Assembly (NCBI GenBank): GCA_946699065.1
Contig: CAMPDV010000687.1
Span: 124,001-188,000 of the forward strand
Length of the DNA stretch: 64,000 bases
Source of the DNA: Loxodes magnus
Taxonomy: Eukaryota; Ciliophora; Karyorelictea; Loxodida; Loxodidae
Direction of reading: 5' to 3'
The notes beneath the pieces were generated by a model. That model searched no databases and had not been told where the DNA came from. It was given only the letters and a program-made list of their open reading frames with translations. Every line of letters starts with the position of its first letter. Position 1 is the stretch's first letter. A program made the position numbers and the translations under genes. Shown in pieces: positions 23,161 through 64,000 of this stretch.

Positions 23161-23196
23161 AATTTCACAAATAATTTGATTCCGCTCTCTCCCAAA

Positions 23197-25636: not shown

Positions 25637-25654
25637 AATTAAATTTTATTTAAT
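25637..25654 (+). repeat. target-site duplication, left (F5 copy B)
   Basis: AATTAAATTTTATTTAAT, exact copy at 25965-25982. Confidence 0.75.
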
Positions 25655-25964
25655 AATTGAAAAGATGGTGGGAGTTGAGAATGACCTTTGTGACCACACT
25701 TTCTGGTTTTATGGCTAGGAAAAAGTTCCTTTCCTGTCGCTGAGAAAGTCCCTGGTCAGAGTCATTTTCTGAAGGGAATGCTGTCTTTGAGATTATCCGC
25801 TCTTGGTAGGGGCTTGAAGCCTGACTGCTCATAACGATAGAGCTCCCTAGCAGCTGTGCCTGGAGCACAACAGGATATCCCTGTTATTCCATAAAAAGAG
25901 AGCGTCGGGTCGTGCAATCGGAAAGGAGTTTCCGGTCCAAAAATTCTTTTAGTTGAAATTAATT
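25655..25964 (+). ncRNA. structured mobile RNA family F5, copy B
   Basis: Second copy of the RNA at 10114-10427. The longest identical blocks are TTTATGGCTAGGAA, AGTTCCTTTCCTGTCGCTGA with GAAAGTCCCTG, and GGTAGGGGCTTGAAGCCTG. Variable parts differ in compensating ways within stems. Flanking 18-bp direct repeats are exact. No common class I or II tail is present, so its mobilising enzyme is unclear. The minus strand holds a short standard-code open frame that is not conserved in copy A. Confidence 0.75.
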
Positions 25965-38659: not shown

Positions 38660-40030
38660 GATAAACTTAAATAAATAAAATAAACATAGTTACTTAAGAT
38701 ATGAAATACTTAATTTGATTGGCTTTAAAAATAAAGAAATAATTTATAATTCCAAACTAAATTAGCATATCAGTTATTTTAAATAATATACTTATATTTT
38801 GTATTAAGCAACTAAAATATTTATTTAATATTTTATCTATTATTTTCTCTTTAAAATTATTAAACTAATTTAAAAATCTAATTTTTATATAAATAAATTT
38901 GAAAATAAGTAAGATAAAAATTATAAACTTCTCTAAAAGAAAAAATTTCTGGGTTATACTTAAGATTATTATTGAAATTAATTTAAAACAAAGAAGATTT
39001 AAATTAAGATAAGTAAATTAAGAGATTAAGATAAAATTATCAAATTTTTATTTTTTAATTATATAGTTGATTTGGTTAATATGTGTAATGATAAAAGTAA
39101 AAAGAAATTTTTTATCTGAATTTTATTAATTTTCCTTTTTATTAATCATATAATATTTAAAAAAATTTGCTTTAAAATATTGTAATAAAAAATAAATTTT
39201 CGCTATAAAAAATTAATTATCACATTAAATGAATATTGTTTACTTTATTTTACTTTAACTTAAACTCAAAAACTAAGATATAGATATAATTTAATTTTTA
39301 TAAACATATATTTTCTAAATTAAAAATTATTAAGCATATCTAAATTTTAGTTTATTTATCTTTCATTCATTTTTAGATATATAATATTAATACATTTTTC
39401 TAAATAGTTAAGCAGAGTTGGCCACTGAAATTTATTGACTCTCAATTTTAATTTTGTCCTAGCGAAATGGAATTAAATAATTGAATCTAAGTAAAGTTTT
39501 TTGGTTTATTGTATACTTCGCATTTTAAGCAAACAATTATATTACTCATAAATTTAATTTAGTTTGAAATGATATAAAATTTATTTGTTTGCTAACGAAA
39601 TATTTTTAAAGCTTCCAACAAATCCATTCATCAATATTATTCTTTTTCTAGAGAATGAAAACCAAATCTTCTATTTTAGTCTACTCCATAATCATAGTTT
39701 CATAAAGAAACTAACTACTTTAGTATCTCTGTTTTTCTTAAATAATAAAAGTGGAATGTTTTGCATAATTAAAGTTACTTTATATATCATTAAAGTTGCT
39801 TAAAAATGATGAAGCTTATGATTTATTAGAGCCGTTAATTGAATTTATAGTTGACTAAAACTAAATGTGAATTAGCTTTTCAATCTAAGATAATTAATTT
39901 TTAAGCCTTTTAAATAATTTTCTTTACTTTAATAAAACGTTTGACTATTAAAGTATAGCCGAAATAGCTCAGTTGGGAGAGCGTTAGACTGAAGATCTAA
40001 AGGTCCCCGGTTCAATCCCGGGTTTCGGCA
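38660..40030. repeat. segmental duplication, copy 2 (uninterrupted)
   Basis: Collinear partner of 1230-7180 without the retroelement insertions. Shared blocks include AACTAAATTAGCAT (38756), GAGTTGGCCACTGAAAT (39414), TAGCGAAATGGAATTAA (39458), TTTCATAAAGAAACTAA (39699) and the tRNA-Phe. Confidence 0.75.
39958..40030 (+). tRNA. tRNA-Phe(GAA)
   Basis: 73 nt. Acceptor GCCGAAA pairs with TTTCGGC, discriminator A. D arm GCTC/GAGC, anticodon stem TTAGA/TCTAA with loop CTGAAGA, T stem CCCGG/CCGGG with loop TTCAATC. Fully paired. Its diverged pseudogene is at 7110. Confidence 0.96.
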
Positions 40031-40307: not shown

Positions 40308-40380
40308 TGCTCTTGGTGAGGGTCGAACTCACGATCTCTGGCTCATAAGACCAGCGCTTTAACCACTAAGCTACAAGAGC
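40308..40380 (-). tRNA. tRNA-Ile(UAU)
   Basis: 73 nt. Acceptor GCTCTTG/CAAGAGC, discriminator A. Anticodon stem CTGGT/GCCAG with loop CTTATGA (anticodon TAT). T stem GTGAG/CTCAC with loop TTCGACC. No intron. Decodes ATA, expected to be a common codon in such AT-rich DNA. It converges on tRNA-Phe, 277 bp away. Confidence 0.95.
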
Positions 40381-43050
40381 TGTTAAATTATATAACTAAG
40401 TATATATTTATACTAATTTCATTAATTTACTAAATGTAGGTCTTCTATCTTGCTTTAAATTTTAAGTTTATAGTAAATTAATAAAAATGTTGATTTGCAA
40501 ATAAAACAACTTAGATCCAAACATGTTATGAATACCCTTATTTGAACGAAAACTGCTTGGAGCAGCAAAATTATAAAATATTATTTATTATTAAAAGGAT
40601 TACTAGAAGAATATCATACATTTTAATCACTATTATCTACTTTAGTTTGCTATTTTGTTATTTAATCATATGAAATTTTATATTATATTTCCAGAGTAAA
40701 ATTAATAAATTTTTTTACATATATGGTCAAGATTATTTGTGATCAGATAAAAAAATGTTGAAAATATCTCCACGTATAAATTTTGAAATTAGATTAAAGA
40801 TAAATCCTTTATTTTATACGGCAATGCTAAAGTAAATTCCAAGTATTTACTCTAAAATTCAACAAAGTTGTTTAAAACTAATCAAATCTCATTTTAATTT
40901 TTAAATCATAAACCAGAATCTAATAAAGTTCTTTTAGTTCCAAAATCAAAAACCCCTGAAATATAGGTGGAATTTAGTTGGAAAAATAAATGAATAGAAG
41001 ATATTTATTACTTGAATATGAATAGATTTTTATATGATGAAAGTTAATTTAAGAGATTATAACTACTTAATTAATAAAAATCTATGCTATCACTATTTTT
41101 ATTGTATAAGCATCGATATTACTATTTTAAATACTTTAACATTTGGTTATATTTTTATTTATTAATGATATAAGTAATTTGCCTATCACTATAAAGATGT
41201 AAAGCACTTATAATTAAACTCATGCTTATTTAATGAAAGCTATTTAAATATATTTTTAACAGAATTATCTCACAATTAATTAACTAATGAAAGAGAGTAT
41301 AAAAGTAGGAAATAAAAAATAATCAAATTTATGGAATTATCAATTTAAGCCTCTAAAAATAATTTATACTATAAATAAAATGTAAATACTAGCTAGCATC
41401 AATTAATAATTGTCTATTATATAAATTAATAATTTTGTTATTTTTATATGCATTAGTTATACATTCGATTATATAACTGAGTGTTATGTATAAAGATTTA
41501 AAATACATTTATTTATAAAGATATATAAAATATAAAGTTTTATATTTTATCTATTTCTATTTTTATATTATTTTGCTCTATATTATTCTCATTTTTCTCA
41601 TTTTTCCTCATCATTTTAGTCAAGTATGAAATATAACAAATTTAAAAAACTTCAGAATTTCTAAGTACAGTTCATTTCTAATTTGTAACTATACAAGTAG
41701 CATGCTAATTTTCAATGGTATCTGTAAAATCTAAGTTGAATACATTTTTTACTATACATACAGGTCACACTTCTAGTTTTCTTCTCTAGGCCCTAAGTTA
41801 TTATTTAATTAAATTACATACTTTTTAAAATTAAAAAGTACATCAGATTTTGAAACTTGTACTGATTTATTTATCTACTAAATTTTTTGTTTTCTTCATA
41901 TTCTAATTTCGACAAAGCTATAAATAAGCATATCAAAGAAAAAAGAAATATTATTTGCAATCCAATTTTTACTACTCATATTCAAATTTATGTCTTTCAG
42001 TTAAGGACATTCTTTTTACATTAGATAGATTTATCTGAAATTACTTAAGAGTATTATAGTTTCATGTAAGACATGAATTATAAATTTAAATTAAAAAACT
42101 AAATATAAAGATTAAGTTTAAATTGCTTAACTATCTACTTTAACTTTTTTCAATTATTAAGAAATAAGAGTTATAATAGAATTTTCTTATTTTATTTTAG
42201 TTAAATAATAGTTAAATATAAGATTTCTTAAGATTCAATTATCATTCATTTTACTATTTAAAGTTAGAAATAAAAGGCTATATATACAGAGAATTTTATA
42301 ACTAAGAAGATTTTAATATAATAATTATCAAAATGATATTATTAATTAATAAAGAGAAAGATTTAAGATCCTTTTGATAATATCTATTTAATATATATTA
42401 ATACTTTTAATAAATAACAAATTCAATTCAAATAGAATTTTCTAAATTTGGATTTAGTGCTTAGTATCCTAATTGAGTTAATTTAATCATTCTATATAAT
42501 TCCATTTTATATTTTCCTTTATTTATTTTGAAAAAGCTTTCCTAGTATTTTTTCTAAGTATTGAAACCAGCAATCCCAGCCTAAATATCCTATTCTAAAA
42601 TTTAGCACTATGATTTTCTTTTTTTATAGCTAATAAGGTTGCATTTACCGAGTATAGTACTCTATTTATTTTTTTATATCTTTTGTAGTCACTTTAATTT
42701 TACTATTTAACTTAAAATTTATAATTTTAAAAACTGAATTTTTAATTTTTCTTCTTCATATTTTGAATATCTTCTTAAATATTTTTTTATTTTACCTTAA
42801 TAAATGTAATAAGAATAATGCTTCTAAATTCACTTTATTTAAATTAAAGGTTTAACTTTTTTTATTATTTACTAAAGACCTTTTTATTGTTTTAATTTCC
42901 TTTATTTATTTAGATTCTATCAATAACAATTTATTTTAGTAGTTATGCAAAATTTTGGTAATTCACTTCTATCCTTAAGATAAGAATATAGTAGAATTTT
43001 AATTTTTTTCATCTAATATTTTTATTGTTGCTTCGAAAATATATATCATT
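40381..43050. other. AT-rich stretch, nothing recognised
   Basis: No tail motif, tRNA or family motif seen. Hydrophobic open frames near 41630-41990 lie in T-rich DNA and are not supported. Confidence 0.5.
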
Positions 43051-43052
43051 AA

Positions 43053-44097
43053 TCATTAAAATAAATGTTCGTCTTCCGGTTTAATTGAAGTTTTAAATGT
43101 ATAATATCTCCTTTCCTGCATGTTCGTTCCTTGCATTGTTCCTTTTCCTTGACTTCTCTCTTTTGAATAATCTGAGTTGAGAATTTTTTTTCTCCAGATT
43201 TTCCCATTTCCCGATGGGAAGAATTCAGTCGCTTGCTACTTCAGTTGCTATTAGTTAACATATCTCCAGATATTCATTCTTATTTATTTCTATTGGAGAT
43301 ATTTCCTCCATAAATGTCAAGTGCTGCTGCAAATATAGCATCTTTTTCTTGCTCTCGGAAACGCCTCTTCTTGTTTCTCTATTCCCATTGGAGTTCCTTA
43401 CGAAGATCTCTACAGGTTTTCTTCTATTAATTTGAGTTTATAATCTAATTTTACTCATTTTTTCTCGTCTTGCTCTTGCATTACTCAGATATCATTCTCT
43501 AAACTTTTCATTTGCTCGTAAACTCCGACTTTAGCTCTTCGGTCTACCATATGGGCTTCATCATCATCTTCATGATTTATCAAATCCTGACTTAATGCAA
43601 ACATCTCTTCCTTCTGGGAGTTTAATTCCTCTTCGAGTTTTTTTATGTTTCTAATAATTTGATGAATCAGCTGTTTCATCTACTAAGAGTCCATTTGTTC
43701 TATTTCGGTATTGTCTAAATCAAAGGTAATAGGATCTATATTGAATTATCGTACTTTACCTTCTTCGTTTATTTTTTGTTTTTTCGTTGTTATTTTTATC
43801 GATTCAGTTGAATGATCTCTTTTTTCAGTTTTCAATGGAGGTGTTGAGAGCTGTGTTAACTTTTCTGTTCTGAATTTTTATCTCAGTTCTTATTTGTCTT
43901 TTAATGGAAGGGATCCGCTTTATTTTAATGTTTAGGAGTTATTATTTTTTATAAATTCTTCTAATCTATTAGATAGTTCTGGTTATTTTTATTAAGAAGA
44001 GCGTTAAGTTGAAGAAGACGTGGCGAGAATATGTGCTTCTGATTTTCTCTCCTGTTCTTAGGAGGTGGTAAAAAAAACCCTTCTTGAATCCAGCCAT
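43053..44097 (-). pseudogene. retrotransposon ORF1 protein with altered zinc knuckle (CCHY) and one frameshift
   Basis: Begins MAGFKKG at 44097, then an 8-T run (44070-44077) puts the rest one base out of frame. With the run one base shorter the frame would be continuous to TGA 43053. After it: a Gln/Ser-rich N-terminal region (QKQPELSNRLEEF), acidic DPITFDLDNTEIEQM, and a coiled coil (NIKKLEEELNSQKEEMFAL). The knuckle CYICSSTWHLWRKY at 43299-43340 has its final zinc ligand Cys as Tyr (TAT). TGA encodes the Trp before His, as in the element at 23691. No RT and no class I or II tail was found downstream, so the element is incomplete or of another class. Confidence 0.6.
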
Positions 44098-49195: not shown

Positions 49196-49262
49196 TTTTT
49201 ATTTCGGAATGAAAAAAGGCATAATAAACTTTTCGATAAACTTCGAGATATAAATTTTTGTT

Positions 49263-49268
49263 AAAAAA
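49263..49268 (-). terminator. RNA polymerase III terminator of initiator tRNA, first unit
   Basis: T6 on the minus strand, one base past the tRNA 3' end. Repeated at the same offset in every unit, so each copy is an independent transcription unit rather than part of a polycistron. Confidence 0.75.
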
Positions 49269-49269
49269 G

Positions 49270-49341
49270 TAGCGAGGAGTAGTTTCGATCTACCGACCTC
49301 TGGGTTATGGGCCCAGCGCGCTTCCACTGCGCTACCCCGCT
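49270..49341 (-). tRNA. initiator tRNA-Met(CAU), array copy 1
   Basis: 72 nt. Acceptor AGCGGGG pairs with CCTCGCT (one G-T wobble), so base pair 1-72 is A-T, a hallmark of eukaryotic initiators. The anticodon stem CTGGG/CCCAG has three consecutive G-C pairs next to loop CCCATAA, with C at position 33. The T loop is ATCGAAA (A54 and A60 instead of TTC), again initiator-specific. D arm GCGC/GCGC with loop AGTGGAA. All identity elements are present, so this is the translation-start tRNA, not the elongator. Confidence 0.97.
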
Positions 49342-49426
49342 TACTTATTTTTATATACTCACAAATATTTTAAATAAGATTATAAACTTTTATTTTGAAA
49401 AATAATGTTTTCTGATGAAAGTGTTG

Positions 49427-49453
49427 TAAACTTTTTCGCGAAAAAAAAGTTTA
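49427..49453. other. spacer inverted repeat, first unit
   Basis: TAAACTTTTT and AAAAAGTTTA arms with CGCG plus a few A in the loop. Present in each unit between tRNA genes, about 86 bp upstream of the tRNA 5' end. Function unknown. Confidence 0.6.
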
Positions 49454-49614
49454 GCATCATTATTGTAGTATTTGTTATCTACTTGTAGATGTGTAACTTA
49501 TTTAAAAATTTATAAGTCTTCTAAACTGAGGGTTCCACTGTTTTTATTTCGGAATGAAAAAAGGCATAATAAACTTTTCGATAAACTTCGAGATATAAAT
49601 TTTTGTTAAAAAAG

Positions 49615-49686
49615 TAGCGAGGAGTAGTTTCGATCTACCGACCTCTGGGTTATGGGCCCAGCGCGCTTCCACTGCGCTACCCCGCT
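49615..49686 (-). tRNA. initiator tRNA-Met(CAU), array copy 2
   Basis: Identical to copy 1. Confidence 0.96.
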
Positions 49687-49959
49687 TACTTATTTTTATA
49701 TACTCACAAATATTTTAAATAAGATTATAAACTTTTATTTTGAAAAATAATGTTTTCTGATGAAAGTGTTGTAAACTTTTTCGCGAAAAAAAAGTTTAGC
49801 ATCATTATTGTAGTATTTGTTATCTACTTGTAGATGTGTAACTTATTTAAAAATTTATAAGTCTTCTAAACTGAGGGTTCCACTGTTTTTATTTCGGAAT
49901 GAAAAAAGGCATAATAAACTTTTCGATAAACTTCGAGATATAAATTTTTGTTAAAAAAG

Positions 49960-50031
49960 TAGCGAGGAGTAGTTTCGATCTACCGACCTCTGGGTTATGG
50001 GCCCAGCGCGCTTCCACTGCGCTACCCCGCT
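49960..50031 (-). tRNA. initiator tRNA-Met(CAU), array copy 3
   Basis: Identical to copy 1. Confidence 0.96.
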
Positions 50032-50304
50032 TACTTATTTTTATATACTCACAAATATTTTAAATAAGATTATAAACTTTTATTTTGAAAAATAATGTTT
50101 TCTGATGAAAGTGTTGTAAACTTTTTCGCGAAAAAAAAGTTTAGCATCATTATTGTAGTATTTGTTATCTACTTGTAGATGTGTAACTTATTTAAAAATT
50201 TATAAGTCTTCTAAACTGAGGGTTCCACTGTTTTTATTTCGGAATGAAAAAAGGCATAATAAACTTTTCGATAAACTTCGAGATATAAATTTTTGTTAAA
50301 AAAG

Positions 50305-50376
50305 TAGCGAGGAGTAGTTTCGATCTACCGACCTCTGGGTTATGGGCCCAGCGCGCTTCCACTGCGCTACCCCGCT
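50305..50376 (-). tRNA. initiator tRNA-Met(CAU), array copy 4
   Basis: Identical to copy 1. Confidence 0.96.
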
Positions 50377-50649
50377 TACTTATTTTTATATACTCACAAA
50401 TATTTTAAATAAGATTATAAACTTTTATTTTGAAAAATAATGTTTTCTGATGAAAGTGTTGTAAACTTTTTCGCGAAAAAAAAGTTTAGCATCATTATTG
50501 TAGTATTTGTTATCTACTTGTAGATGTGTAACTTATTTAAAAATTTATAAGTCTTCTAAACTGAGGGTTCCACTGTTTTTATTTCGGAATGAAAAAAGGC
50601 ATAATAAACTTTTCGATAAACTTCGAGATATAAATTTTTGTTAAAAAAG

Positions 50650-50721
50650 TAGCGAGGAGTAGTTTCGATCTACCGACCTCTGGGTTATGGGCCCAGCGCG
50701 CTTCCACTGCGCTACCCCGCT
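50650..50721 (-). tRNA. initiator tRNA-Met(CAU), array copy 5
   Basis: Identical to copy 1. Confidence 0.96.
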
Positions 50722-50994
50722 TACTTATTTTTATATACTCACAAATATTTTAAATAAGATTATAAACTTTTATTTTGAAAAATAATGTTTTCTGATGAAA
50801 GTGTTGTAAACTTTTTCGCGAAAAAAAAGTTTAGCATCATTATTGTAGTATTTGTTATCTACTTGTAGATGTGTAACTTATTTAAAAATTTATAAGTCTT
50901 CTAAACTGAGGGTTCCACTGTTTTTATTTCGGAATGAAAAAAGGCATAATAAACTTTTCGATAAACTTCGAGATATAAATTTTTGTTAAAAAAG

Positions 50995-51066
50995 TAGCGA
51001 GGAGTAGTTTCGATCTACCGACCTCTGGGTTATGGGCCCAGCGCGCTTCCACTGCGCTACCCCGCT
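50995..51066 (-). tRNA. initiator tRNA-Met(CAU), array copy 6
   Basis: Identical to copy 1. Confidence 0.96.
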
Positions 51067-51339
51067 TACTTATTTTTATATACTCACAAATATTTTAAAT
51101 AAGATTATAAACTTTTATTTTGAAAAATAATGTTTTCTGATGAAAGTGTTGTAAACTTTTTCGCGAAAAAAAAGTTTAGCATCATTATTGTAGTATTTGT
51201 TATCTACTTGTAGATGTGTAACTTATTTAAAAATTTATAAGTCTTCTAAACTGAGGGTTCCACTGTTTTTATTTCGGAATGAAAAAAGGCATAATAAACT
51301 TTTCGATAAACTTCGAGATATAAATTTTTGTTAAAAAAG

Positions 51340-51411
51340 TAGCGAGGAGTAGTTTCGATCTACCGACCTCTGGGTTATGGGCCCAGCGCGCTTCCACTGC
51401 GCTACCCCGCT
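51340..51411 (-). tRNA. initiator tRNA-Met(CAU), array copy 7
   Basis: Identical to copy 1. Confidence 0.96.
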
Positions 51412-51684
51412 TACTTATTTTTATATACTCACAAATATTTTAAATAAGATTATAAACTTTTATTTTGAAAAATAATGTTTTCTGATGAAAGTGTTGTAAA
51501 CTTTTTCGCGAAAAAAAAGTTTAGCATCATTATTGTAGTATTTGTTATCTACTTGTAGATGTGTAACTTATTTAAAAATTTATAAGTCTTCTAAACTGAG
51601 GGTTCCACTGTTTTTATTTCGGAATGAAAAAAGGCATAATAAACTTTTCGATAAACTTCGAGATATAAATTTTTGTTAAAAAAG

Positions 51685-51756
51685 TAGCGAGGAGTAGTTT
51701 CGATCTACCGACCTCTGGGTTATGGGCCCAGCGCGCTTCCACTGCGCTACCCCGCT
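51685..51756 (-). tRNA. initiator tRNA-Met(CAU), array copy 8
   Basis: Identical to copy 1. Confidence 0.96.
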
Positions 51757-52029
51757 TACTTATTTTTATATACTCACAAATATTTTAAATAAGATTATAA
51801 ACTTTTATTTTGAAAAATAATGTTTTCTGATGAAAGTGTTGTAAACTTTTTCGCGAAAAAAAAGTTTAGCATCATTATTGTAGTATTTGTTATCTACTTG
51901 TAGATGTGTAACTTATTTAAAAATTTATAAGTCTTCTAAACTGAGGGTTCCACTGTTTTTATTTCGGAATGAAAAAAGGCATAATAAACTTTTCGATAAA
52001 CTTCGAGATATAAATTTTTGTTAAAAAAG

Positions 52030-52101
52030 TAGCGAGGAGTAGTTTCGATCTACCGACCTCTGGGTTATGGGCCCAGCGCGCTTCCACTGCGCTACCCCGC
52101 T
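52030..52101 (-). tRNA. initiator tRNA-Met(CAU), array copy 9
   Basis: Identical to copy 1. Confidence 0.96.
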
Positions 52102-52374
52102 TACTTATTTTTATATACTCACAAATATTTTAAATAAGATTATAAACTTTTATTTTGAAAAATAATGTTTTCTGATGAAAGTGTTGTAAACTTTTTCGCG
52201 AAAAAAAAGTTTAGCATCATTATTGTAGTATTTGTTATCTACTTGTAGATGTGTAACTTATTTAAAAATTTATAAGTCTTCTAAACTGAGGGTTCCACTG
52301 TTTTTATTTCGGAATGAAAAAAGGCATAATAAACTTTTCGATAAACTTCGAGATATAAATTTTTGTTAAAAAAG

Positions 52375-52446
52375 TAGCGAGGAGTAGTTTCGATCTACCG
52401 ACCTCTGGGTTATGGGCCCAGCGCGCTTCCACTGCGCTACCCCGCT
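52375..52446 (-). tRNA. initiator tRNA-Met(CAU), array copy 10
   Basis: Identical to copy 1. Confidence 0.96.
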
Positions 52447-52719
52447 TACTTATTTTTATATACTCACAAATATTTTAAATAAGATTATAAACTTTTATTT
52501 TGAAAAATAATGTTTTCTGATGAAAGTGTTGTAAACTTTTTCGCGAAAAAAAAGTTTAGCATCATTATTGTAGTATTTGTTATCTACTTGTAGATGTGTA
52601 ACTTATTTAAAAATTTATAAGTCTTCTAAACTGAGGGTTCCACTGTTTTTATTTCGGAATGAAAAAAGGCATAATAAACTTTTCGATAAACTTCGAGATA
52701 TAAATTTTTGTTAAAAAAG

Positions 52720-52791
52720 TAGCGAGGAGTAGTTTCGATCTACCGACCTCTGGGTTATGGGCCCAGCGCGCTTCCACTGCGCTACCCCGCT
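52720..52791 (-). tRNA. initiator tRNA-Met(CAU), array copy 11
   Basis: Identical to copy 1. Confidence 0.96.
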
Positions 52792-53064
52792 TACTTATTT
52801 TTATATACTCACAAATATTTTAAATAAGATTATAAACTTTTATTTTGAAAAATAATGTTTTCTGATGAAAGTGTTGTAAACTTTTTCGCGAAAAAAAAGT
52901 TTAGCATCATTATTGTAGTATTTGTTATCTACTTGTAGATGTGTAACTTATTTAAAAATTTATAAGTCTTCTAAACTGAGGGTTCCACTGTTTTTATTTC
53001 GGAATGAAAAAAGGCATAATAAACTTTTCGATAAACTTCGAGATATAAATTTTTGTTAAAAAAG

Positions 53065-53136
53065 TAGCGAGGAGTAGTTTCGATCTACCGACCTCTGGGT
53101 TATGGGCCCAGCGCGCTTCCACTGCGCTACCCCGCT
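53065..53136 (-). tRNA. initiator tRNA-Met(CAU), array copy 12
   Basis: Identical to copy 1. Confidence 0.96.
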
Positions 53137-53409
53137 TACTTATTTTTATATACTCACAAATATTTTAAATAAGATTATAAACTTTTATTTTGAAAAATAA
53201 TGTTTTCTGATGAAAGTGTTGTAAACTTTTTCGCGAAAAAAAAGTTTAGCATCATTATTGTAGTATTTGTTATCTACTTGTAGATGTGTAACTTATTTAA
53301 AAATTTATAAGTCTTCTAAACTGAGGGTTCCACTGTTTTTATTTCGGAATGAAAAAAGGCATAATAAACTTTTCGATAAACTTCGAGATATAAATTTTTG
53401 TTAAAAAAG

Positions 53410-53481
53410 TAGCGAGGAGTAGTTTCGATCTACCGACCTCTGGGTTATGGGCCCAGCGCGCTTCCACTGCGCTACCCCGCT
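53410..53481 (-). tRNA. initiator tRNA-Met(CAU), array copy 13
   Basis: Identical to copy 1. Confidence 0.96.
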
Positions 53482-53754
53482 TACTTATTTTTATATACTC
53501 ACAAATATTTTAAATAAGATTATAAACTTTTATTTTGAAAAATAATGTTTTCTGATGAAAGTGTTGTAAACTTTTTCGCGAAAAAAAAGTTTAGCATCAT
53601 TATTGTAGTATTTGTTATCTACTTGTAGATGTGTAACTTATTTAAAAATTTATAAGTCTTCTAAACTGAGGGTTCCACTGTTTTTATTTCGGAATGAAAA
53701 AAGGCATAATAAACTTTTCGATAAACTTCGAGATATAAATTTTTGTTAAAAAAG

Positions 53755-53826
53755 TAGCGAGGAGTAGTTTCGATCTACCGACCTCTGGGTTATGGGCCCA
53801 GCGCGCTTCCACTGCGCTACCCCGCT
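53755..53826 (-). tRNA. initiator tRNA-Met(CAU), array copy 14
   Basis: Identical to copy 1. Confidence 0.96.
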
Positions 53827-54099
53827 TACTTATTTTTATATACTCACAAATATTTTAAATAAGATTATAAACTTTTATTTTGAAAAATAATGTTTTCTGA
53901 TGAAAGTGTTGTAAACTTTTTCGCGAAAAAAAAGTTTAGCATCATTATTGTAGTATTTGTTATCTACTTGTAGATGTGTAACTTATTTAAAAATTTATAA
54001 GTCTTCTAAACTGAGGGTTCCACTGTTTTTATTTCGGAATGAAAAAAGGCATAATAAACTTTTCGATAAACTTCGAGATATAAATTTTTGTTAAAAAAG

Positions 54100-54171
54100 T
54101 AGCGAGGAGTAGTTTCGATCTACCGACCTCTGGGTTATGGGCCCAGCGCGCTTCCACTGCGCTACCCCGCT
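54100..54171 (-). tRNA. initiator tRNA-Met(CAU), array copy 15
   Basis: Identical to copy 1. Confidence 0.96.
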
Positions 54172-54444
54172 TACTTATTTTTATATACTCACAAATATTT
54201 TAAATAAGATTATAAACTTTTATTTTGAAAAATAATGTTTTCTGATGAAAGTGTTGTAAACTTTTTCGCGAAAAAAAAGTTTAGCATCATTATTGTAGTA
54301 TTTGTTATCTACTTGTAGATGTGTAACTTATTTAAAAATTTATAAGTCTTCTAAACTGAGGGTTCCACTGTTTTTATTTCGGAATGAAAAAAGGCATAAT
54401 AAACTTTTCGATAAACTTCGAGATATAAATTTTTGTTAAAAAAG

Positions 54445-54516
54445 TAGCGAGGAGTAGTTTCGATCTACCGACCTCTGGGTTATGGGCCCAGCGCGCTTCC
54501 ACTGCGCTACCCCGCT
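54445..54516 (-). tRNA. initiator tRNA-Met(CAU), array copy 16
   Basis: Identical to copy 1. Confidence 0.96.
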
Positions 54517-54789
54517 TACTTATTTTTATATACTCACAAATATTTTAAATAAGATTATAAACTTTTATTTTGAAAAATAATGTTTTCTGATGAAAGTGTT
54601 GTAAACTTTTTCGCGAAAAAAAAGTTTAGCATCATTATTGTAGTATTTGTTATCTACTTGTAGATGTGTAACTTATTTAAAAATTTATAAGTCTTCTAAA
54701 CTGAGGGTTCCACTGTTTTTATTTCGGAATGAAAAAAGGCATAATAAACTTTTCGATAAACTTCGAGATATAAATTTTTGTTAAAAAAG

Positions 54790-54861
54790 TAGCGAGGAGT
54801 AGTTTCGATCTACCGACCTCTGGGTTATGGGCCCAGCGCGCTTCCACTGCGCTACCCCGCT
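54790..54861 (-). tRNA. initiator tRNA-Met(CAU), array copy 17
   Basis: Identical to copy 1. Confidence 0.96.
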
Positions 54862-55134
54862 TACTTATTTTTATATACTCACAAATATTTTAAATAAGAT
54901 TATAAACTTTTATTTTGAAAAATAATGTTTTCTGATGAAAGTGTTGTAAACTTTTTCGCGAAAAAAAAGTTTAGCATCATTATTGTAGTATTTGTTATCT
55001 ACTTGTAGATGTGTAACTTATTTAAAAATTTATAAGTCTTCTAAACTGAGGGTTCCACTGTTTTTATTTCGGAATGAAAAAAGGCATAATAAACTTTTCG
55101 ATAAACTTCGAGATATAAATTTTTGTTAAAAAAG

Positions 55135-55206
55135 TAGCGAGGAGTAGTTTCGATCTACCGACCTCTGGGTTATGGGCCCAGCGCGCTTCCACTGCGCTAC
55201 CCCGCT
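55135..55206 (-). tRNA. initiator tRNA-Met(CAU), array copy 18
   Basis: Identical to copy 1. Confidence 0.96.
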
Positions 55207-55479
55207 TACTTATTTTTATATACTCACAAATATTTTAAATAAGATTATAAACTTTTATTTTGAAAAATAATGTTTTCTGATGAAAGTGTTGTAAACTTTT
55301 TCGCGAAAAAAAAGTTTAGCATCATTATTGTAGTATTTGTTATCTACTTGTAGATGTGTAACTTATTTAAAAATTTATAAGTCTTCTAAACTGAGGGTTC
55401 CACTGTTTTTATTTCGGAATGAAAAAAGGCATAATAAACTTTTCGATAAACTTCGAGATATAAATTTTTGTTAAAAAAG

Positions 55480-55551
55480 TAGCGAGGAGTAGTTTCGATC
55501 TACCGACCTCTGGGTTATGGGCCCAGCGCGCTTCCACTGCGCTACCCCGCT
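55480..55551 (-). tRNA. initiator tRNA-Met(CAU), array copy 19
   Basis: Identical to copy 1. Confidence 0.96.
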
Positions 55552-55824
55552 TACTTATTTTTATATACTCACAAATATTTTAAATAAGATTATAAACTTT
55601 TATTTTGAAAAATAATGTTTTCTGATGAAAGTGTTGTAAACTTTTTCGCGAAAAAAAAGTTTAGCATCATTATTGTAGTATTTGTTATCTACTTGTAGAT
55701 GTGTAACTTATTTAAAAATTTATAAGTCTTCTAAACTGAGGGTTCCACTGTTTTTATTTCGGAATGAAAAAAGGCATAATAAACTTTTCGATAAACTTCG
55801 AGATATAAATTTTTGTTAAAAAAG

Positions 55825-55896
55825 TAGCGAGGAGTAGTTTCGATCTACCGACCTCTGGGTTATGGGCCCAGCGCGCTTCCACTGCGCTACCCCGCT
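55825..55896 (-). tRNA. initiator tRNA-Met(CAU), array copy 20
   Basis: Identical to copy 1. Confidence 0.96.
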
Positions 55897-56169
55897 TACT
55901 TATTTTTATATACTCACAAATATTTTAAATAAGATTATAAACTTTTATTTTGAAAAATAATGTTTTCTGATGAAAGTGTTGTAAACTTTTTCGCGAAAAA
56001 AAAGTTTAGCATCATTATTGTAGTATTTGTTATCTACTTGTAGATGTGTAACTTATTTAAAAATTTATAAGTCTTCTAAACTGAGGGTTCCACTGTTTTT
56101 ATTTCGGAATGAAAAAAGGCATAATAAACTTTTCGATAAACTTCGAGATATAAATTTTTGTTAAAAAAG

Positions 56170-56241
56170 TAGCGAGGAGTAGTTTCGATCTACCGACCTC
56201 TGGGTTATGGGCCCAGCGCGCTTCCACTGCGCTACCCCGCT
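56170..56241 (-). tRNA. initiator tRNA-Met(CAU), array copy 21
   Basis: Identical to copy 1. Confidence 0.96.
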
Positions 56242-56514
56242 TACTTATTTTTATATACTCACAAATATTTTAAATAAGATTATAAACTTTTATTTTGAAA
56301 AATAATGTTTTCTGATGAAAGTGTTGTAAACTTTTTCGCGAAAAAAAAGTTTAGCATCATTATTGTAGTATTTGTTATCTACTTGTAGATGTGTAACTTA
56401 TTTAAAAATTTATAAGTCTTCTAAACTGAGGGTTCCACTGTTTTTATTTCGGAATGAAAAAAGGCATAATAAACTTTTCGATAAACTTCGAGATATAAAT
56501 TTTTGTTAAAAAAG

Positions 56515-56586
56515 TAGCGAGGAGTAGTTTCGATCTACCGACCTCTGGGTTATGGGCCCAGCGCGCTTCCACTGCGCTACCCCGCT
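56515..56586 (-). tRNA. initiator tRNA-Met(CAU), array copy 22
   Basis: Identical to copy 1. Confidence 0.96.
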
Positions 56587-56859
56587 TACTTATTTTTATA
56601 TACTCACAAATATTTTAAATAAGATTATAAACTTTTATTTTGAAAAATAATGTTTTCTGATGAAAGTGTTGTAAACTTTTTCGCGAAAAAAAAGTTTAGC
56701 ATCATTATTGTAGTATTTGTTATCTACTTGTAGATGTGTAACTTATTTAAAAATTTATAAGTCTTCTAAACTGAGGGTTCCACTGTTTTTATTTCGGAAT
56801 GAAAAAAGGCATAATAAACTTTTCGATAAACTTCGAGATATAAATTTTTGTTAAAAAAG

Positions 56860-56931
56860 TAGCGAGGAGTAGTTTCGATCTACCGACCTCTGGGTTATGG
56901 GCCCAGCGCGCTTCCACTGCGCTACCCCGCT
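56860..56931 (-). tRNA. initiator tRNA-Met(CAU), array copy 23
   Basis: Identical to copy 1. Confidence 0.96.
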
Positions 56932-57204
56932 TACTTATTTTTATATACTCACAAATATTTTAAATAAGATTATAAACTTTTATTTTGAAAAATAATGTTT
57001 TCTGATGAAAGTGTTGTAAACTTTTTCGCGAAAAAAAAGTTTAGCATCATTATTGTAGTATTTGTTATCTACTTGTAGATGTGTAACTTATTTAAAAATT
57101 TATAAGTCTTCTAAACTGAGGGTTCCACTGTTTTTATTTCGGAATGAAAAAAGGCATAATAAACTTTTCGATAAACTTCGAGATATAAATTTTTGTTAAA
57201 AAAG

Positions 57205-57276
57205 TAGCGAGGAGTAGTTTCGATCTACCGACCTCTGGGTTATGGGCCCAGCGCGCTTCCACTGCGCTACCCCGCT
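57205..57276 (-). tRNA. initiator tRNA-Met(CAU), array copy 24
   Basis: Identical to copy 1. Confidence 0.96.
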
Positions 57277-57549
57277 TACTTATTTTTATATACTCACAAA
57301 TATTTTAAATAAGATTATAAACTTTTATTTTGAAAAATAATGTTTTCTGATGAAAGTGTTGTAAACTTTTTCGCGAAAAAAAAGTTTAGCATCATTATTG
57401 TAGTATTTGTTATCTACTTGTAGATGTGTAACTTATTTAAAAATTTATAAGTCTTCTAAACTGAGGGTTCCACTGTTTTTATTTCGGAATGAAAAAAGGC
57501 ATAATAAACTTTTCGATAAACTTCGAGATATAAATTTTTGTTAAAAAAG

Positions 57550-57621
57550 TAGCGAGGAGTAGTTTCGATCTACCGACCTCTGGGTTATGGGCCCAGCGCG
57601 CTTCCACTGCGCTACCCCGCT
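57550..57621 (-). tRNA. initiator tRNA-Met(CAU), array copy 25
   Basis: Identical to copy 1. Confidence 0.96.
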
Positions 57622-57894
57622 TACTTATTTTTATATACTCACAAATATTTTAAATAAGATTATAAACTTTTATTTTGAAAAATAATGTTTTCTGATGAAA
57701 GTGTTGTAAACTTTTTCGCGAAAAAAAAGTTTAGCATCATTATTGTAGTATTTGTTATCTACTTGTAGATGTGTAACTTATTTAAAAATTTATAAGTCTT
57801 CTAAACTGAGGGTTCCACTGTTTTTATTTCGGAATGAAAAAAGGCATAATAAACTTTTCGATAAACTTCGAGATATAAATTTTTGTTAAAAAAG

Positions 57895-57966
57895 TAGCGA
57901 GGAGTAGTTTCGATCTACCGACCTCTGGGTTATGGGCCCAGCGCGCTTCCACTGCGCTACCCCGCT
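57895..57966 (-). tRNA. initiator tRNA-Met(CAU), array copy 26
   Basis: Identical to copy 1. Confidence 0.96.
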
Positions 57967-58239
57967 TACTTATTTTTATATACTCACAAATATTTTAAAT
58001 AAGATTATAAACTTTTATTTTGAAAAATAATGTTTTCTGATGAAAGTGTTGTAAACTTTTTCGCGAAAAAAAAGTTTAGCATCATTATTGTAGTATTTGT
58101 TATCTACTTGTAGATGTGTAACTTATTTAAAAATTTATAAGTCTTCTAAACTGAGGGTTCCACTGTTTTTATTTCGGAATGAAAAAAGGCATAATAAACT
58201 TTTCGATAAACTTCGAGATATAAATTTTTGTTAAAAAAG

Positions 58240-58311
58240 TAGCGAGGAGTAGTTTCGATCTACCGACCTCTGGGTTATGGGCCCAGCGCGCTTCCACTGC
58301 GCTACCCCGCT
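58240..58311 (-). tRNA. initiator tRNA-Met(CAU), array copy 27
   Basis: Identical to copy 1. Confidence 0.96.
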
Positions 58312-58584
58312 TACTTATTTTTATATACTCACAAATATTTTAAATAAGATTATAAACTTTTATTTTGAAAAATAATGTTTTCTGATGAAAGTGTTGTAAA
58401 CTTTTTCGCGAAAAAAAAGTTTAGCATCATTATTGTAGTATTTGTTATCTACTTGTAGATGTGTAACTTATTTAAAAATTTATAAGTCTTCTAAACTGAG
58501 GGTTCCACTGTTTTTATTTCGGAATGAAAAAAGGCATAATAAACTTTTCGATAAACTTCGAGATATAAATTTTTGTTAAAAAAG

Positions 58585-58656
58585 TAGCGAGGAGTAGTTT
58601 CGATCTACCGACCTCTGGGTTATGGGCCCAGCGCGCTTCCACTGCGCTACCCCGCT
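58585..58656 (-). tRNA. initiator tRNA-Met(CAU), array copy 28
   Basis: Identical to copy 1. Confidence 0.96.
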
Positions 58657-58929
58657 TACTTATTTTTATATACTCACAAATATTTTAAATAAGATTATAA
58701 ACTTTTATTTTGAAAAATAATGTTTTCTGATGAAAGTGTTGTAAACTTTTTCGCGAAAAAAAAGTTTAGCATCATTATTGTAGTATTTGTTATCTACTTG
58801 TAGATGTGTAACTTATTTAAAAATTTATAAGTCTTCTAAACTGAGGGTTCCACTGTTTTTATTTCGGAATGAAAAAAGGCATAATAAACTTTTCGATAAA
58901 CTTCGAGATATAAATTTTTGTTAAAAAAG

Positions 58930-59001
58930 TAGCGAGGAGTAGTTTCGATCTACCGACCTCTGGGTTATGGGCCCAGCGCGCTTCCACTGCGCTACCCCGC
59001 T
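58930..59001 (-). tRNA. initiator tRNA-Met(CAU), array copy 29
   Basis: Identical to copy 1. Confidence 0.96.
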
Positions 59002-59274
59002 TACTTATTTTTATATACTCACAAATATTTTAAATAAGATTATAAACTTTTATTTTGAAAAATAATGTTTTCTGATGAAAGTGTTGTAAACTTTTTCGCG
59101 AAAAAAAAGTTTAGCATCATTATTGTAGTATTTGTTATCTACTTGTAGATGTGTAACTTATTTAAAAATTTATAAGTCTTCTAAACTGAGGGTTCCACTG
59201 TTTTTATTTCGGAATGAAAAAAGGCATAATAAACTTTTCGATAAACTTCGAGATATAAATTTTTGTTAAAAAAG

Positions 59275-59346
59275 TAGCGAGGAGTAGTTTCGATCTACCG
59301 ACCTCTGGGTTATGGGCCCAGCGCGCTTCCACTGCGCTACCCCGCT
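59275..59346 (-). tRNA. initiator tRNA-Met(CAU), array copy 30
   Basis: Identical to copy 1. Confidence 0.96.
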
Positions 59347-59619
59347 TACTTATTTTTATATACTCACAAATATTTTAAATAAGATTATAAACTTTTATTT
59401 TGAAAAATAATGTTTTCTGATGAAAGTGTTGTAAACTTTTTCGCGAAAAAAAAGTTTAGCATCATTATTGTAGTATTTGTTATCTACTTGTAGATGTGTA
59501 ACTTATTTAAAAATTTATAAGTCTTCTAAACTGAGGGTTCCACTGTTTTTATTTCGGAATGAAAAAAGGCATAATAAACTTTTCGATAAACTTCGAGATA
59601 TAAATTTTTGTTAAAAAAG

Positions 59620-59691
59620 TAGCGAGGAGTAGTTTCGATCTACCGACCTCTGGGTTATGGGCCCAGCGCGCTTCCACTGCGCTACCCCGCT
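59620..59691 (-). tRNA. initiator tRNA-Met(CAU), array copy 31
   Basis: Identical to copy 1. Confidence 0.96.
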
Positions 59692-59964
59692 TACTTATTT
59701 TTATATACTCACAAATATTTTAAATAAGATTATAAACTTTTATTTTGAAAAATAATGTTTTCTGATGAAAGTGTTGTAAACTTTTTCGCGAAAAAAAAGT
59801 TTAGCATCATTATTGTAGTATTTGTTATCTACTTGTAGATGTGTAACTTATTTAAAAATTTATAAGTCTTCTAAACTGAGGGTTCCACTGTTTTTATTTC
59901 GGAATGAAAAAAGGCATAATAAACTTTTCGATAAACTTCGAGATATAAATTTTTGTTAAAAAAG

Positions 59965-60036
59965 TAGCGAGGAGTAGTTTCGATCTACCGACCTCTGGGT
60001 TATGGGCCCAGCGCGCTTCCACTGCGCTACCCCGCT
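59965..60036 (-). tRNA. initiator tRNA-Met(CAU), array copy 32
   Basis: Identical to copy 1. Confidence 0.96.
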
Positions 60037-60309
60037 TACTTATTTTTATATACTCACAAATATTTTAAATAAGATTATAAACTTTTATTTTGAAAAATAA
60101 TGTTTTCTGATGAAAGTGTTGTAAACTTTTTCGCGAAAAAAAAGTTTAGCATCATTATTGTAGTATTTGTTATCTACTTGTAGATGTGTAACTTATTTAA
60201 AAATTTATAAGTCTTCTAAACTGAGGGTTCCACTGTTTTTATTTCGGAATGAAAAAAGGCATAATAAACTTTTCGATAAACTTCGAGATATAAATTTTTG
60301 TTAAAAAAG

Positions 60310-60381
60310 TAGCGAGGAGTAGTTTCGATCTACCGACCTCTGGGTTATGGGCCCAGCGCGCTTCCACTGCGCTACCCCGCT
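60310..60381 (-). tRNA. initiator tRNA-Met(CAU), array copy 33
   Basis: Identical to copy 1. Confidence 0.96.
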
Positions 60382-60654
60382 TACTTATTTTTATATACTC
60401 ACAAATATTTTAAATAAGATTATAAACTTTTATTTTGAAAAATAATGTTTTCTGATGAAAGTGTTGTAAACTTTTTCGCGAAAAAAAAGTTTAGCATCAT
60501 TATTGTAGTATTTGTTATCTACTTGTAGATGTGTAACTTATTTAAAAATTTATAAGTCTTCTAAACTGAGGGTTCCACTGTTTTTATTTCGGAATGAAAA
60601 AAGGCATAATAAACTTTTCGATAAACTTCGAGATATAAATTTTTGTTAAAAAAG

Positions 60655-60726
60655 TAGCGAGGAGTAGTTTCGATCTACCGACCTCTGGGTTATGGGCCCA
60701 GCGCGCTTCCACTGCGCTACCCCGCT
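60655..60726 (-). tRNA. initiator tRNA-Met(CAU), array copy 34
   Basis: Identical to copy 1. Confidence 0.96.
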
Positions 60727-60999
60727 TACTTATTTTTATATACTCACAAATATTTTAAATAAGATTATAAACTTTTATTTTGAAAAATAATGTTTTCTGA
60801 TGAAAGTGTTGTAAACTTTTTCGCGAAAAAAAAGTTTAGCATCATTATTGTAGTATTTGTTATCTACTTGTAGATGTGTAACTTATTTAAAAATTTATAA
60901 GTCTTCTAAACTGAGGGTTCCACTGTTTTTATTTCGGAATGAAAAAAGGCATAATAAACTTTTCGATAAACTTCGAGATATAAATTTTTGTTAAAAAAG

Positions 61000-61071
61000 T
61001 AGCGAGGAGTAGTTTCGATCTACCGACCTCTGGGTTATGGGCCCAGCGCGCTTCCACTGCGCTACCCCGCT
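61000..61071 (-). tRNA. initiator tRNA-Met(CAU), array copy 35
   Basis: Identical to copy 1. Confidence 0.96.
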
Positions 61072-61344
61072 TACTTATTTTTATATACTCACAAATATTT
61101 TAAATAAGATTATAAACTTTTATTTTGAAAAATAATGTTTTCTGATGAAAGTGTTGTAAACTTTTTCGCGAAAAAAAAGTTTAGCATCATTATTGTAGTA
61201 TTTGTTATCTACTTGTAGATGTGTAACTTATTTAAAAATTTATAAGTCTTCTAAACTGAGGGTTCCACTGTTTTTATTTCGGAATGAAAAAAGGCATAAT
61301 AAACTTTTCGATAAACTTCGAGATATAAATTTTTGTTAAAAAAG

Positions 61345-61416
61345 TAGCGAGGAGTAGTTTCGATCTACCGACCTCTGGGTTATGGGCCCAGCGCGCTTCC
61401 ACTGCGCTACCCCGCT
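61345..61416 (-). tRNA. initiator tRNA-Met(CAU), array copy 36
   Basis: Gene identical to copy 1. The spacer to its right has the first length variant (AAAAATATTATAAG for AAAAATTTATAAG near 61581). Confidence 0.96.
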
Positions 61417-61690
61417 TACTTATTTTTATATACTCACAAATATTTTAAATAAGATTATAAACTTTTATTTTGAAAAATAATGTTTTCTGATGAAAGTGTT
61501 GTAAACTTTTTCGCGAAAAAAAAGTTTAGCATCATTATTGTAGTATTTGTTATCTACTTGTAGATGTGTAACTTATTTAAAAATATTATAAGTCTTCTAA
61601 ACTGAGGGTTCCACTGTTTTTATTTCGGAATGAAAAAAGGCATAATAAACTTTTCGATAAACTTCGAGATATAAATTTTTGTTAAAAAAG

Positions 61691-61788
61691 TAGCGAGGAG
61701 TAGTTTCGATCTACCGACCTCTGGAGTAGTTTCGATCTACCGACCTCTGGGTTATGGGCCCAGCGCGCTTCCACTGCGCTACCCCGCT
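61691..61788 (-). pseudogene. initiator tRNA-Met, array copy 37, broken by a 26-nt internal duplication
   Basis: The segment covering the variable region, T arm and start of the 3' acceptor strand is repeated in tandem inside the gene, so the copy spans 98 nt and would have two T arms. Unlikely to mature as a tRNA. Confidence 0.9.
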
Positions 61789-62061
61789 TACTTATTTTTA
61801 TATACTCACAAATATTTTAAATAAGATTATAAACTTTTATTTTGAAAAATAATGTTTTCTGATGAAAGTGTTGTAAACTTTTTCGCGAAAAAAAAGTTTA
61901 GCATCATTATTGTAGTATTTGTTATCTACTTGTAGATGTGTAACTTATTTAAAAATTTATAAGTCTTCTAAACTGAGGGTTCCACTGTTTTTATTTCGGA
62001 ATGAAAAAAGGCATAATAAACTTTTCGATAAACTTCGAGATATAAATTTTTGTTAAAAAAG

Positions 62062-62133
62062 TAGCGAGGAGTAGTTTCGATCTACCGACCTCTGGGTTAT
62101 GGGCCCAGCGCGCTTCCACTGCGCTACCCCGCT
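62062..62133 (-). tRNA. initiator tRNA-Met(CAU), array copy 38
   Basis: Gene identical to copy 1. The spacer to its right is 1 nt longer (ATATTATAAG variant). Confidence 0.96.
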
Positions 62134-62407
62134 TACTTATTTTTATATACTCACAAATATTTTAAATAAGATTATAAACTTTTATTTTGAAAAATAATGT
62201 TTTCTGATGAAAGTGTTGTAAACTTTTTCGCGAAAAAAAAGTTTAGCATCATTATTGTAGTATTTGTTATCTACTTGTAGATGTGTAACTTATTTAAAAA
62301 TATTATAAGTCTTCTAAACTGAGGGTTCCACTGTTTTTATTTCGGAATGAAAAAAGGCATAATAAACTTTTCGATAAACTTCGAGATATAAATTTTTGTT
62401 AAAAAAG

Positions 62408-62479
62408 TAGCGAGGAGTAGTTTCGATCTACCGACCTCTGGGTTATGGGCCCAGCGCGCTTCCACTGCGCTACCCCGCT
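62408..62479 (-). tRNA. initiator tRNA-Met(CAU), array copy 39
   Basis: Gene identical to copy 1. The spacer to its right is also 1 nt longer. Confidence 0.96.
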
Positions 62480-62753
62480 TACTTATTTTTATATACTCAC
62501 AAATATTTTAAATAAGATTATAAACTTTTATTTTGAAAAATAATGTTTTCTGATGAAAGTGTTGTAAACTTTTTCGCGAAAAAAAAGTTTAGCATCATTA
62601 TTGTAGTATTTGTTATCTACTTGTAGATGTGTAACTTATTTAAAAATATTATAAGTCTTCTAAACTGAGGGTTCCACTGTTTTTATTTCGGAATGAAAAA
62701 AGGCATAATAAACTTTTCGATAAACTTCGAGATATAAATTTTTGTTAAAAAAG

Positions 62754-62825
62754 TAGCGAGGAGTAGTTTCGATCTACCGACCTCTGGGTTATGGGCCCAG
62801 CGCGCTTCCACTGCGCTACCCCGCT
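62754..62825 (-). tRNA. initiator tRNA-Met(CAU), array copy 40
   Basis: Identical to copy 1; the standard 345-bp spacing resumes. Confidence 0.96.
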
Positions 62826-63098
62826 TACTTATTTTTATATACTCACAAATATTTTAAATAAGATTATAAACTTTTATTTTGAAAAATAATGTTTTCTGAT
62901 GAAAGTGTTGTAAACTTTTTCGCGAAAAAAAAGTTTAGCATCATTATTGTAGTATTTGTTATCTACTTGTAGATGTGTAACTTATTTAAAAATTTATAAG
63001 TCTTCTAAACTGAGGGTTCCACTGTTTTTATTTCGGAATGAAAAAAGGCATAATAAACTTTTCGATAAACTTCGAGATATAAATTTTTGTTAAAAAAG

Positions 63099-63170
63099 TA
63101 GCGAGGAGTAGTTTCGATCTACCGACCTCTGGGTTATGGGCCCAGCGCGCTTCCACTGCGCTACCCCGCT
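63099..63170 (-). tRNA. initiator tRNA-Met(CAU), array copy 41
   Basis: Identical to copy 1. Confidence 0.96.
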
Positions 63171-63443
63171 TACTTATTTTTATATACTCACAAATATTTT
63201 AAATAAGATTATAAACTTTTATTTTGAAAAATAATGTTTTCTGATGAAAGTGTTGTAAACTTTTTCGCGAAAAAAAAGTTTAGCATCATTATTGTAGTAT
63301 TTGTTATCTACTTGTAGATGTGTAACTTATTTAAAAATTTATAAGTCTTCTAAACTGAGGGTTCCACTGTTTTTATTTCGGAATGAAAAAAGGCATAATA
63401 AACTTTTCGATAAACTTCGAGATATAAATTTTTGTTAAAAAAG

Positions 63444-63515
63444 TAGCGAGGAGTAGTTTCGATCTACCGACCTCTGGGTTATGGGCCCAGCGCGCTTCCA
63501 CTGCGCTACCCCGCT
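63444..63515 (-). tRNA. initiator tRNA-Met(CAU), array copy 42
   Basis: Identical to copy 1. Confidence 0.96.
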
Positions 63516-63788
63516 TACTTATTTTTATATACTCACAAATATTTTAAATAAGATTATAAACTTTTATTTTGAAAAATAATGTTTTCTGATGAAAGTGTTG
63601 TAAACTTTTTCGCGAAAAAAAAGTTTAGCATCATTATTGTAGTATTTGTTATCTACTTGTAGATGTGTAACTTATTTAAAAATTTATAAGTCTTCTAAAC
63701 TGAGGGTTCCACTGTTTTTATTTCGGAATGAAAAAAGGCATAATAAACTTTTCGATAAACTTCGAGATATAAATTTTTGTTAAAAAAG

Positions 63789-63860
63789 TAGCGAGGAGTA
63801 GTTTCGATCTACCGACCTCTGGGTTATGGGCCCAGCGCGCTTCCACTGCGCTACCCCGCT
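63789..63860 (-). tRNA. initiator tRNA-Met(CAU), array copy 43
   Basis: Identical to copy 1; last complete copy before the window edge. Confidence 0.96.
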
Positions 63861-64000
63861 TACTTATTTTTATATACTCACAAATATTTTAAATAAGATT
63901 ATAAACTTTTATTTTGAAAAATAATGTTTTCTGATGAAAGTGTTGTAAACTTTTTCGCGAAAAAAAAGTTTAGCATCATTATTGTAGTATTTGTTATCTA

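Follow-up and report, generated by a model that had tools for sequence, protein, structure and literature searches.

How a genome comes to carry a long row of near-identical genes for the transfer RNA (tRNA) that starts protein synthesis, and whether such a row serves the supply of that tRNA, is the question raised by a locus of the ciliate Loxodes magnus. The locus, a head-to-tail array of 345-bp units carrying an initiator tRNA-Met(CAT) gene, lies in the window analyzed here, a stretch of 64,000 nt (C687:124001-188000) from an assembly of 705,730,643 bases in 7,843 contigs. This size matches the 706 Mbp given for the published macronuclear assembly of L. magnus, which is described as built with Falcon from 20-30x HiFi data (PMC11441545). 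We lean towards reading the locus as a chromosomal tandem array resembling that of ribosomal DNA (rDNA), amplified and homogenized by unequal exchange and probably transcribed in part. Feature coordinates are given in Table 1.

In the window, Tandem Repeats Finder (TRF) reports a period of 345 bp with 42.8 copies and 99% matches, and ARAGORN predicts 42 tRNA-Met(CAT) genes between 49269 and 63860, every one on the minus strand. Counting by the anticodon-loop motif yields 43 copies, that is, the 42 intact genes and a broken one; 39 of the 42 unit lengths between these motifs correspond to one identical 345-mer, two are of 346 bp, and one is of 372 bp. In a scan of positions 1-50500, each of the four array copies there reaches 57.7 bits with the Rfam tRNA model (cut-off 29), and two of these do so again on rescanning of 49400-50100. 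As the rescan at E-values up to 1 finds the tRNA only, a second RNA gene hidden in the unit was rejected, and no short tandem repeats were found within the 345-bp unit.

The arrayed tRNA forms a cloverleaf with the CAU anticodon (ARAGORN, Rfam), and its Rfam alignment shows A1-U72, A54, A60, three G-C pairs in the anticodon stem and C33 before CAU, which we take to be the marks of a eukaryotic cytosolic initiator tRNA. By these sequence features the arrayed tRNA belongs to that class, its charging and use at start codons being predicted. Signals of RNA polymerase III (Pol III) type accompany the gene: T6 is found directly 3′ in all 58 exact tRNA copies of C687, the trailer of the arrayed genes being ACTTTTTT, and a TATA-like block is located approximately 20 bases upstream. 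Since each unit has the internal boxes, the TATA-like block and T6, transcription is probable for at least some of the units and would raise the dose of initiator tRNA. In the 21 dispersed initiator copies compared (see below), T4 or a longer run also directly follows the gene.

Occurrences in the whole assembly were counted for a 33-base tag from the 3′ flank of the unit and for the exact 71-base tRNA, with backwards-read patterns as controls. In 705.7 Mb there are 550 occurrences of the tag and 604 of the exact tRNA; these are assembly totals, and locations are known for the 100 matches listed per search. The controls yielded 0 matches for both tag and tRNA, which excludes chance. The tag is present on C687, C2358, C4839 and further contigs. 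The C687 portion of the array begins at 173196 and continues to the last base of the contig, 193952; 60 motifs were counted in it, ARAGORN predicts 59 genes, and the exact tRNA is present 58 times. C2358 (63,897 bp) carries it from 51,258 to the contig end, with genes on the plus strand and at least 36 tags among the matches listed, 30 of the 35 intervals between these being 350 bp. C4839 (46,736 bp) proved to be array throughout, its genes being divided between the two strands (92 and 42), and hence was rejected both as the right end of C687 and as an allele with the C687 flank. Near position 14,570 of this contig (L014) the opposite arms meet around a 34-base tRNA piece, and, as they join at nearly one unit position, a sequencing or assembly artefact is as likely an origin of the fold-back as a real inversion.

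The longest runs of identical units comprise 35 units in C687 (12,075 bp) and 42 in C4839 (14,490 bp). With identical runs of 12-14 kb the assembler could lose or gain units, so the assembled unit count may not be exact; moreover, C687, C2358 and C4839 each end inside the array, and thus its full length is not fixed by these contigs. The array itself is real and larger than its portion in the window, its copies in the assembly numbering a few hundred. The first-pass annotation, prepared from the window, had described a near-perfect 345-bp array of complete genes for a single isoacceptor, the initiator, each with its own T6 terminator, and our results (99% matches by TRF, the 42 ARAGORN genes, the Rfam scores, and T6 after 58 of 58 exact C687 copies) agree with this description. 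Its figure of at least 43 genes is correct for copies in the window but not for intact genes, and as a lower bound for the array, which holds, it is far too low given 60 motifs on C687 and 550 tags in the assembly.

Read in the direction of the tRNA, the array starts in AAATAAAAACAGTGG on C2358 and terminates in CCGAAATAAAAA on C687. The 3′ edge on C687 and the 5′ edge at C2358:51258 fall at one unit point and have different unique flanks, hence a single chromosomal array is likely, with these two contigs holding its two sides. A search of the whole assembly gave a single match to the 5′ edge sequence. Edges at one unit point are also what tandem duplication predicts. The 5′ edge on C2358 is adjoined by a copy (L060:1323-1632) of an interspersed repeat of approximately 260-320 bp, which is found in the window at 10100-10362 and 25639-25900 as well (86% and 75% identity).

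Among the 192 units compared, drawn from C687 and C4839, 161 are identical. Variation is concentrated at a single AT microsite in the spacer, where we observe +A (16 units), +AA (13 units) and +AACG (three units), with the carriers non-adjacent, and +A and +AACG present on both contigs. Recurrence of this kind in non-adjacent units is what unequal exchange and gene conversion would leave behind, in keeping with concerted evolution of the array. Single-unit changes are located mostly near contig ends, where the consensus quality is doubtful, and the three substitutions all fall within the last 1.7 kb of C4839.

Identical initiator genes are also found outside the array. Among the 100 matches listed, at least 42 exact initiator tRNAs lie outside it, on 17 contigs (C45 to C1034) that carry no tag in the tag listing, which goes in contig order up to C4839. 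Subtraction (604 minus 550) gives approximately 54 such genes, a rough figure, since not every unit matches both the tag and the exact tRNA. The flanks of 21 of the 42 listed copies were compared and fall into several families. The gene at C892:115630 has 39 of 40 upstream bases in common with the array unit, the other 20 copies having 9-21 of 40, and so C892 is the closest single-gene relative of the founder among the 21 copies compared. A tRNA-derived SINE or LTR element (Helenus type) would be expected to show mobile copies with target duplications, long terminal repeats (LTRs) or tails; on the array spacer no LTR or tail was noticed, though no systematic search was made, and the tag is found on C687, C2358, C4839 and later contigs only.

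One family forms a repeat of its own: initiator genes at positions 88415, 105930, 123435, 140954 and 158464 of C878 (L043, L044) are spaced by approximately 17.5 kb and constitute a second, long-period repeat with five successive initiator copies. The tRNA was the only Rfam match in the 18.5 kb of this repeat scanned, and rDNA was rejected as its source, there being no rRNA in L043-L044. Two further dispersed copies, L047 (C1034) and L048 (C489), have a common 60-base 5′ flank ending in GGGGAAATGTACC at the tRNA start and a 3′ flank of the C878 family type, as if an element had been inserted directly upstream of the tRNA gene.

Two other tRNA genes of the window served as copy-number yardsticks. 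tRNA-Phe(GAA) has 160 exact copies in the assembly, 17 of them in one array of 376-bp units (C22:46817-52903, L063) that is bounded on both sides inside the 1.52-Mb contig C22 and has 15 of 16 units identical. The Phe unit is unrelated to the initiator unit and also carries a Leu-like tRNA remnant without the anticodon arm, followed by T8. tRNA-Ile(TAT) has five scattered exact copies and no array. The initiator array is by far the largest among the three tRNA types examined, and the Phe array demonstrates that arraying is not special to the initiator. The Entamoeba-type organization, with nearly all tRNA types arrayed, is not observed for these three types, as Ile-TAT is scattered and both the initiator and Phe are also dispersed. 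Two suggestions of the first-pass annotation are weakened by these data: that the array is a dedicated initiator supply, since intact genes elsewhere, which it had named as contrary evidence, number approximately 54; and that a single-isoacceptor array is unusual, given the 17-copy Phe array here and single-type arrays in Entamoeba and plants. Pairs of tRNA-Phe genes approximately 5.13 kb apart on C350, C508, C516, C545 and C644 point to another tRNA-bearing repeated segment.

To account for the array as an rDNA-like chromosomal locus, we suggest that a C892-like gene may have been duplicated in tandem along with its promoter and terminator, and that unequal exchange and gene conversion would then have lengthened and homogenized the row, spreading +A, +AA and +AACG, so that exchange rather than demand would chiefly determine the copy number. 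rDNA of L. magnus is reported to lie in head-to-tail chromosomal arrays as well (PMC11441545). Several observations weigh against this explanation. Four of the 25 distinct edits fall in the tRNA (72 of 345 bases, 21%), with approximately five expected, and purifying selection on the tRNA within the array, considered separately, is not supported, as edits are no rarer in the tRNA than in the spacer. One copy is broken by the 26-bp duplication, and the fold-back of C4839 holds a cut tRNA. Moreover, the remaining tags of the 550 are on other contigs, so there may be several arrays or two haplotypes.

Ciliates usually raise gene dose by copying the working nucleus many times, which Loxodes does not do. 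The array might then be a selected dosage device, built by selection in the same way as rDNA arrays for macronuclei that are non-dividing and barely amplified, an account that we consider possible but doubtful. L. magnus macronuclei are described as having at most approximately twice the micronuclear DNA, without rRNA amplification (PMC11441545), which makes selection for dose plausible, and exact copies number 604 for the initiator compared to 160 for Phe and five for Ile-TAT; however, the approximately 54 identical initiator genes exist without any array, no tRNA-specific constraint is visible among the unit edits, and Phe is arrayed too. It is rather improbable that the array is a mostly silent satellite, seeded by a tRNA, spread neutrally or selfishly, heterochromatic and yielding little tRNA, with a possible role as a fork barrier or boundary. 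The unit does behave like a satellite in its variation on C687 and C4839, and a silent state would have parallels in the Arabidopsis Ser/Tyr cluster, reported as silent in most tissues (PMC12308677), and in Entamoeba, where the authors regard many arrayed copies as inactive (PMC2652664), while histone H3 lysine 9 trimethylation (H3K9me3) is reported in L. magnus macronuclei (PMC11441545). On the contrary, nearly all units retain the complete gene, promoter block and terminator, although homogenization alone could explain this. Multiplication of a few real units by the assembler, or chimerism, would fit the identical runs, the 20-30x HiFi data assembled with Falcon, the three contigs ending within the array, the near-palindromic fold-back of C4839, and the suspicion of the L. 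magnus authors that low-complexity repeats are misassembled (PMC11441545). Still, the presence of the tag on several contigs together with common internal variants makes an invention of the assembly very unlikely; the array has two edges with different unique flanks, the variants stand in register on two contigs, and the separate Phe array is closed on both sides within one contig. Contigs broken inside a repeat usually indicate collapse, not inflation. We give hardly any credence to a telomere-like array at a chromosome end, an idea once put forward for the tRNA arrays of Entamoeba: C687, C2358 and C4839 all terminate in the array, but edges at one unit point with opposite flanks indicate an internal array, and the breaks in the contigs are most readily attributed to the assembler.

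Table 1. Features of the window (window positions unless another contig is named; strand as reported)
Feature	Position	Strand	Basis and remarks
Head-to-tail array, 345-bp units	49196..64000	-	TRF, motif spacing; cut by window end, runs on to C687:193952
Array 3′ edge (tRNA sense), sharp, in unit run AAATAAAAA	49196..49204	.	leftmost base matching +345 is 49196
Pol III-type terminator 3′ of first tRNA (one base, then T6 on minus strand)	49263..49269	-	sequence; in each unit
First initiator tRNA-Met(CAT) gene	49270..49341	-	ARAGORN; Rfam RF00005, 57.7 bits
5′ flank of first gene, TATATAAAA ~20 bases upstream	49342..49381	-	39/40 bases common with single C892 gene
41 more intact tRNA-Met(CAT) copies	up to 63788-63860	-	ARAGORN
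Units with +A variant at spacer AT microsite	61378..62786 (motifs 61378, 62095, 62441)	-	variant recurs on C687 and C4839
tRNA copy disrupted by a 26-bp duplication in tandem inside the gene	61691..61788 (TRF 61697-61750)	-	TRF, alignment; no ARAGORN call
tRNA-Phe(GAA), copy-number yardstick	39958..40030	+	ARAGORN
tRNA-Ile(TAT), copy-number yardstick	40308..40380	-	ARAGORN
Formate/nitrite transporter copies	14301-15030, 18402-19160, ~26400-27250	+, +, -	two with PF01226, third from six-frame print only

The window is of low GC content and contains retroelement remains, which fits L. magnus. It reads under the karyorelict code 27 (UAA/UAG = Gln, UGA = Trp or stop), adopted after three copies of a formate/nitrite transporter (FNT) gene were noticed in the six-frame print; gene reading under the standard code and code 6 was abandoned, with 10 long code-6 open reading frames lacking a Pfam match. 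Read under code 27, the FNT transporter matches PF01226 with E-values of 1.8e-61 and 5.7e-49 (Pfam), and the FNT genes have in-frame TGA at common places in the three copies, TGA facing TGG at two places. Retroelement-like remains are seen at ~23000-24640 and 43000-44000, including a zinc-knuckle-like stretch with in-frame TGA at ~24,310 and a TTA-repeat tail at ~24,625; the retroelement-like piece sent to Pfam gave no match.

Tandem tRNA arrays are known from other eukaryotes, and the Loxodes array is a very large example of this type, not a new mechanism; what surprises is its size, that it concerns the initiator, and that its host is a ciliate. The Entamoeba arrays are described as similar in having head-to-tail short AT-rich units with complete tRNA genes, concerted evolution, some one-type units ([Arg-TCT], [His-GTG], [Gly-TCC], [Pro-TGG]) and some tRNAs that are also dispersed, but they differ in comprising nearly all tRNA types in 25 unit types and more than 10% of the genome, and, in E. 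histolytica and E. dispar, in the short tandem repeats between genes, of which none were found in the Loxodes unit; the main text of that paper does not contain the word “initiator” (PMC2652664). In plants, rows of identical tRNA genes are reported, e.g., 27 tRNA-Pro and 27 Ser/Tyr units in Arabidopsis and 28 tRNA-Ile in maize (PMC12652284, PMC11700998), and tandem clusters of identical genes are listed for initiator tRNA-Met (iMet) too (PMC12652284), although the reported totals are 1-34 iMet genes per species, compared to 550 tags of one Loxodes unit (PMC12652284, PMC11700998). The Arabidopsis tRNA-Cys cluster likewise consists of tandem 0.4-kb units of one type, but has four genes (PMC10701932). 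The human 1q23.3 tRNA variable number tandem repeat is similar in its tandem arrangement and variable copy number (9-43 units), and differs in having a 7.3 kb unit (20 times longer) that is GC-rich and CTCF-bound (PMC4041453). The L. magnus rDNA agrees in forming chromosomal head-to-tail arrays for an abundant RNA and differs in being a Pol I gene; the word tRNA is absent from the main text of the genome paper (PMC11441545). We found no report of a Loxodes initiator tRNA array in the literature searched, which excluded subscription journals and the L. magnus supplements.

In a tentative reading, which we put forward with considerable reservation, Loxodes, having given up macronuclear amplification, would specify the dose of the one tRNA that starts every protein through a germline locus similar to rDNA, with several hundred units, and this dose would thus be a copy-number trait. 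If true, Loxodes would possess an “initiator locus” comparable to rDNA, with a supply open to rapid change by unequal exchange. The tRNA gene counts in this Loxodes genome depend on arrays left incompletely assembled. The array provides a natural experiment on whether translation is limited by the dose of initiator tRNA, or whether such rows are a by-product of unequal exchange at Pol III genes.

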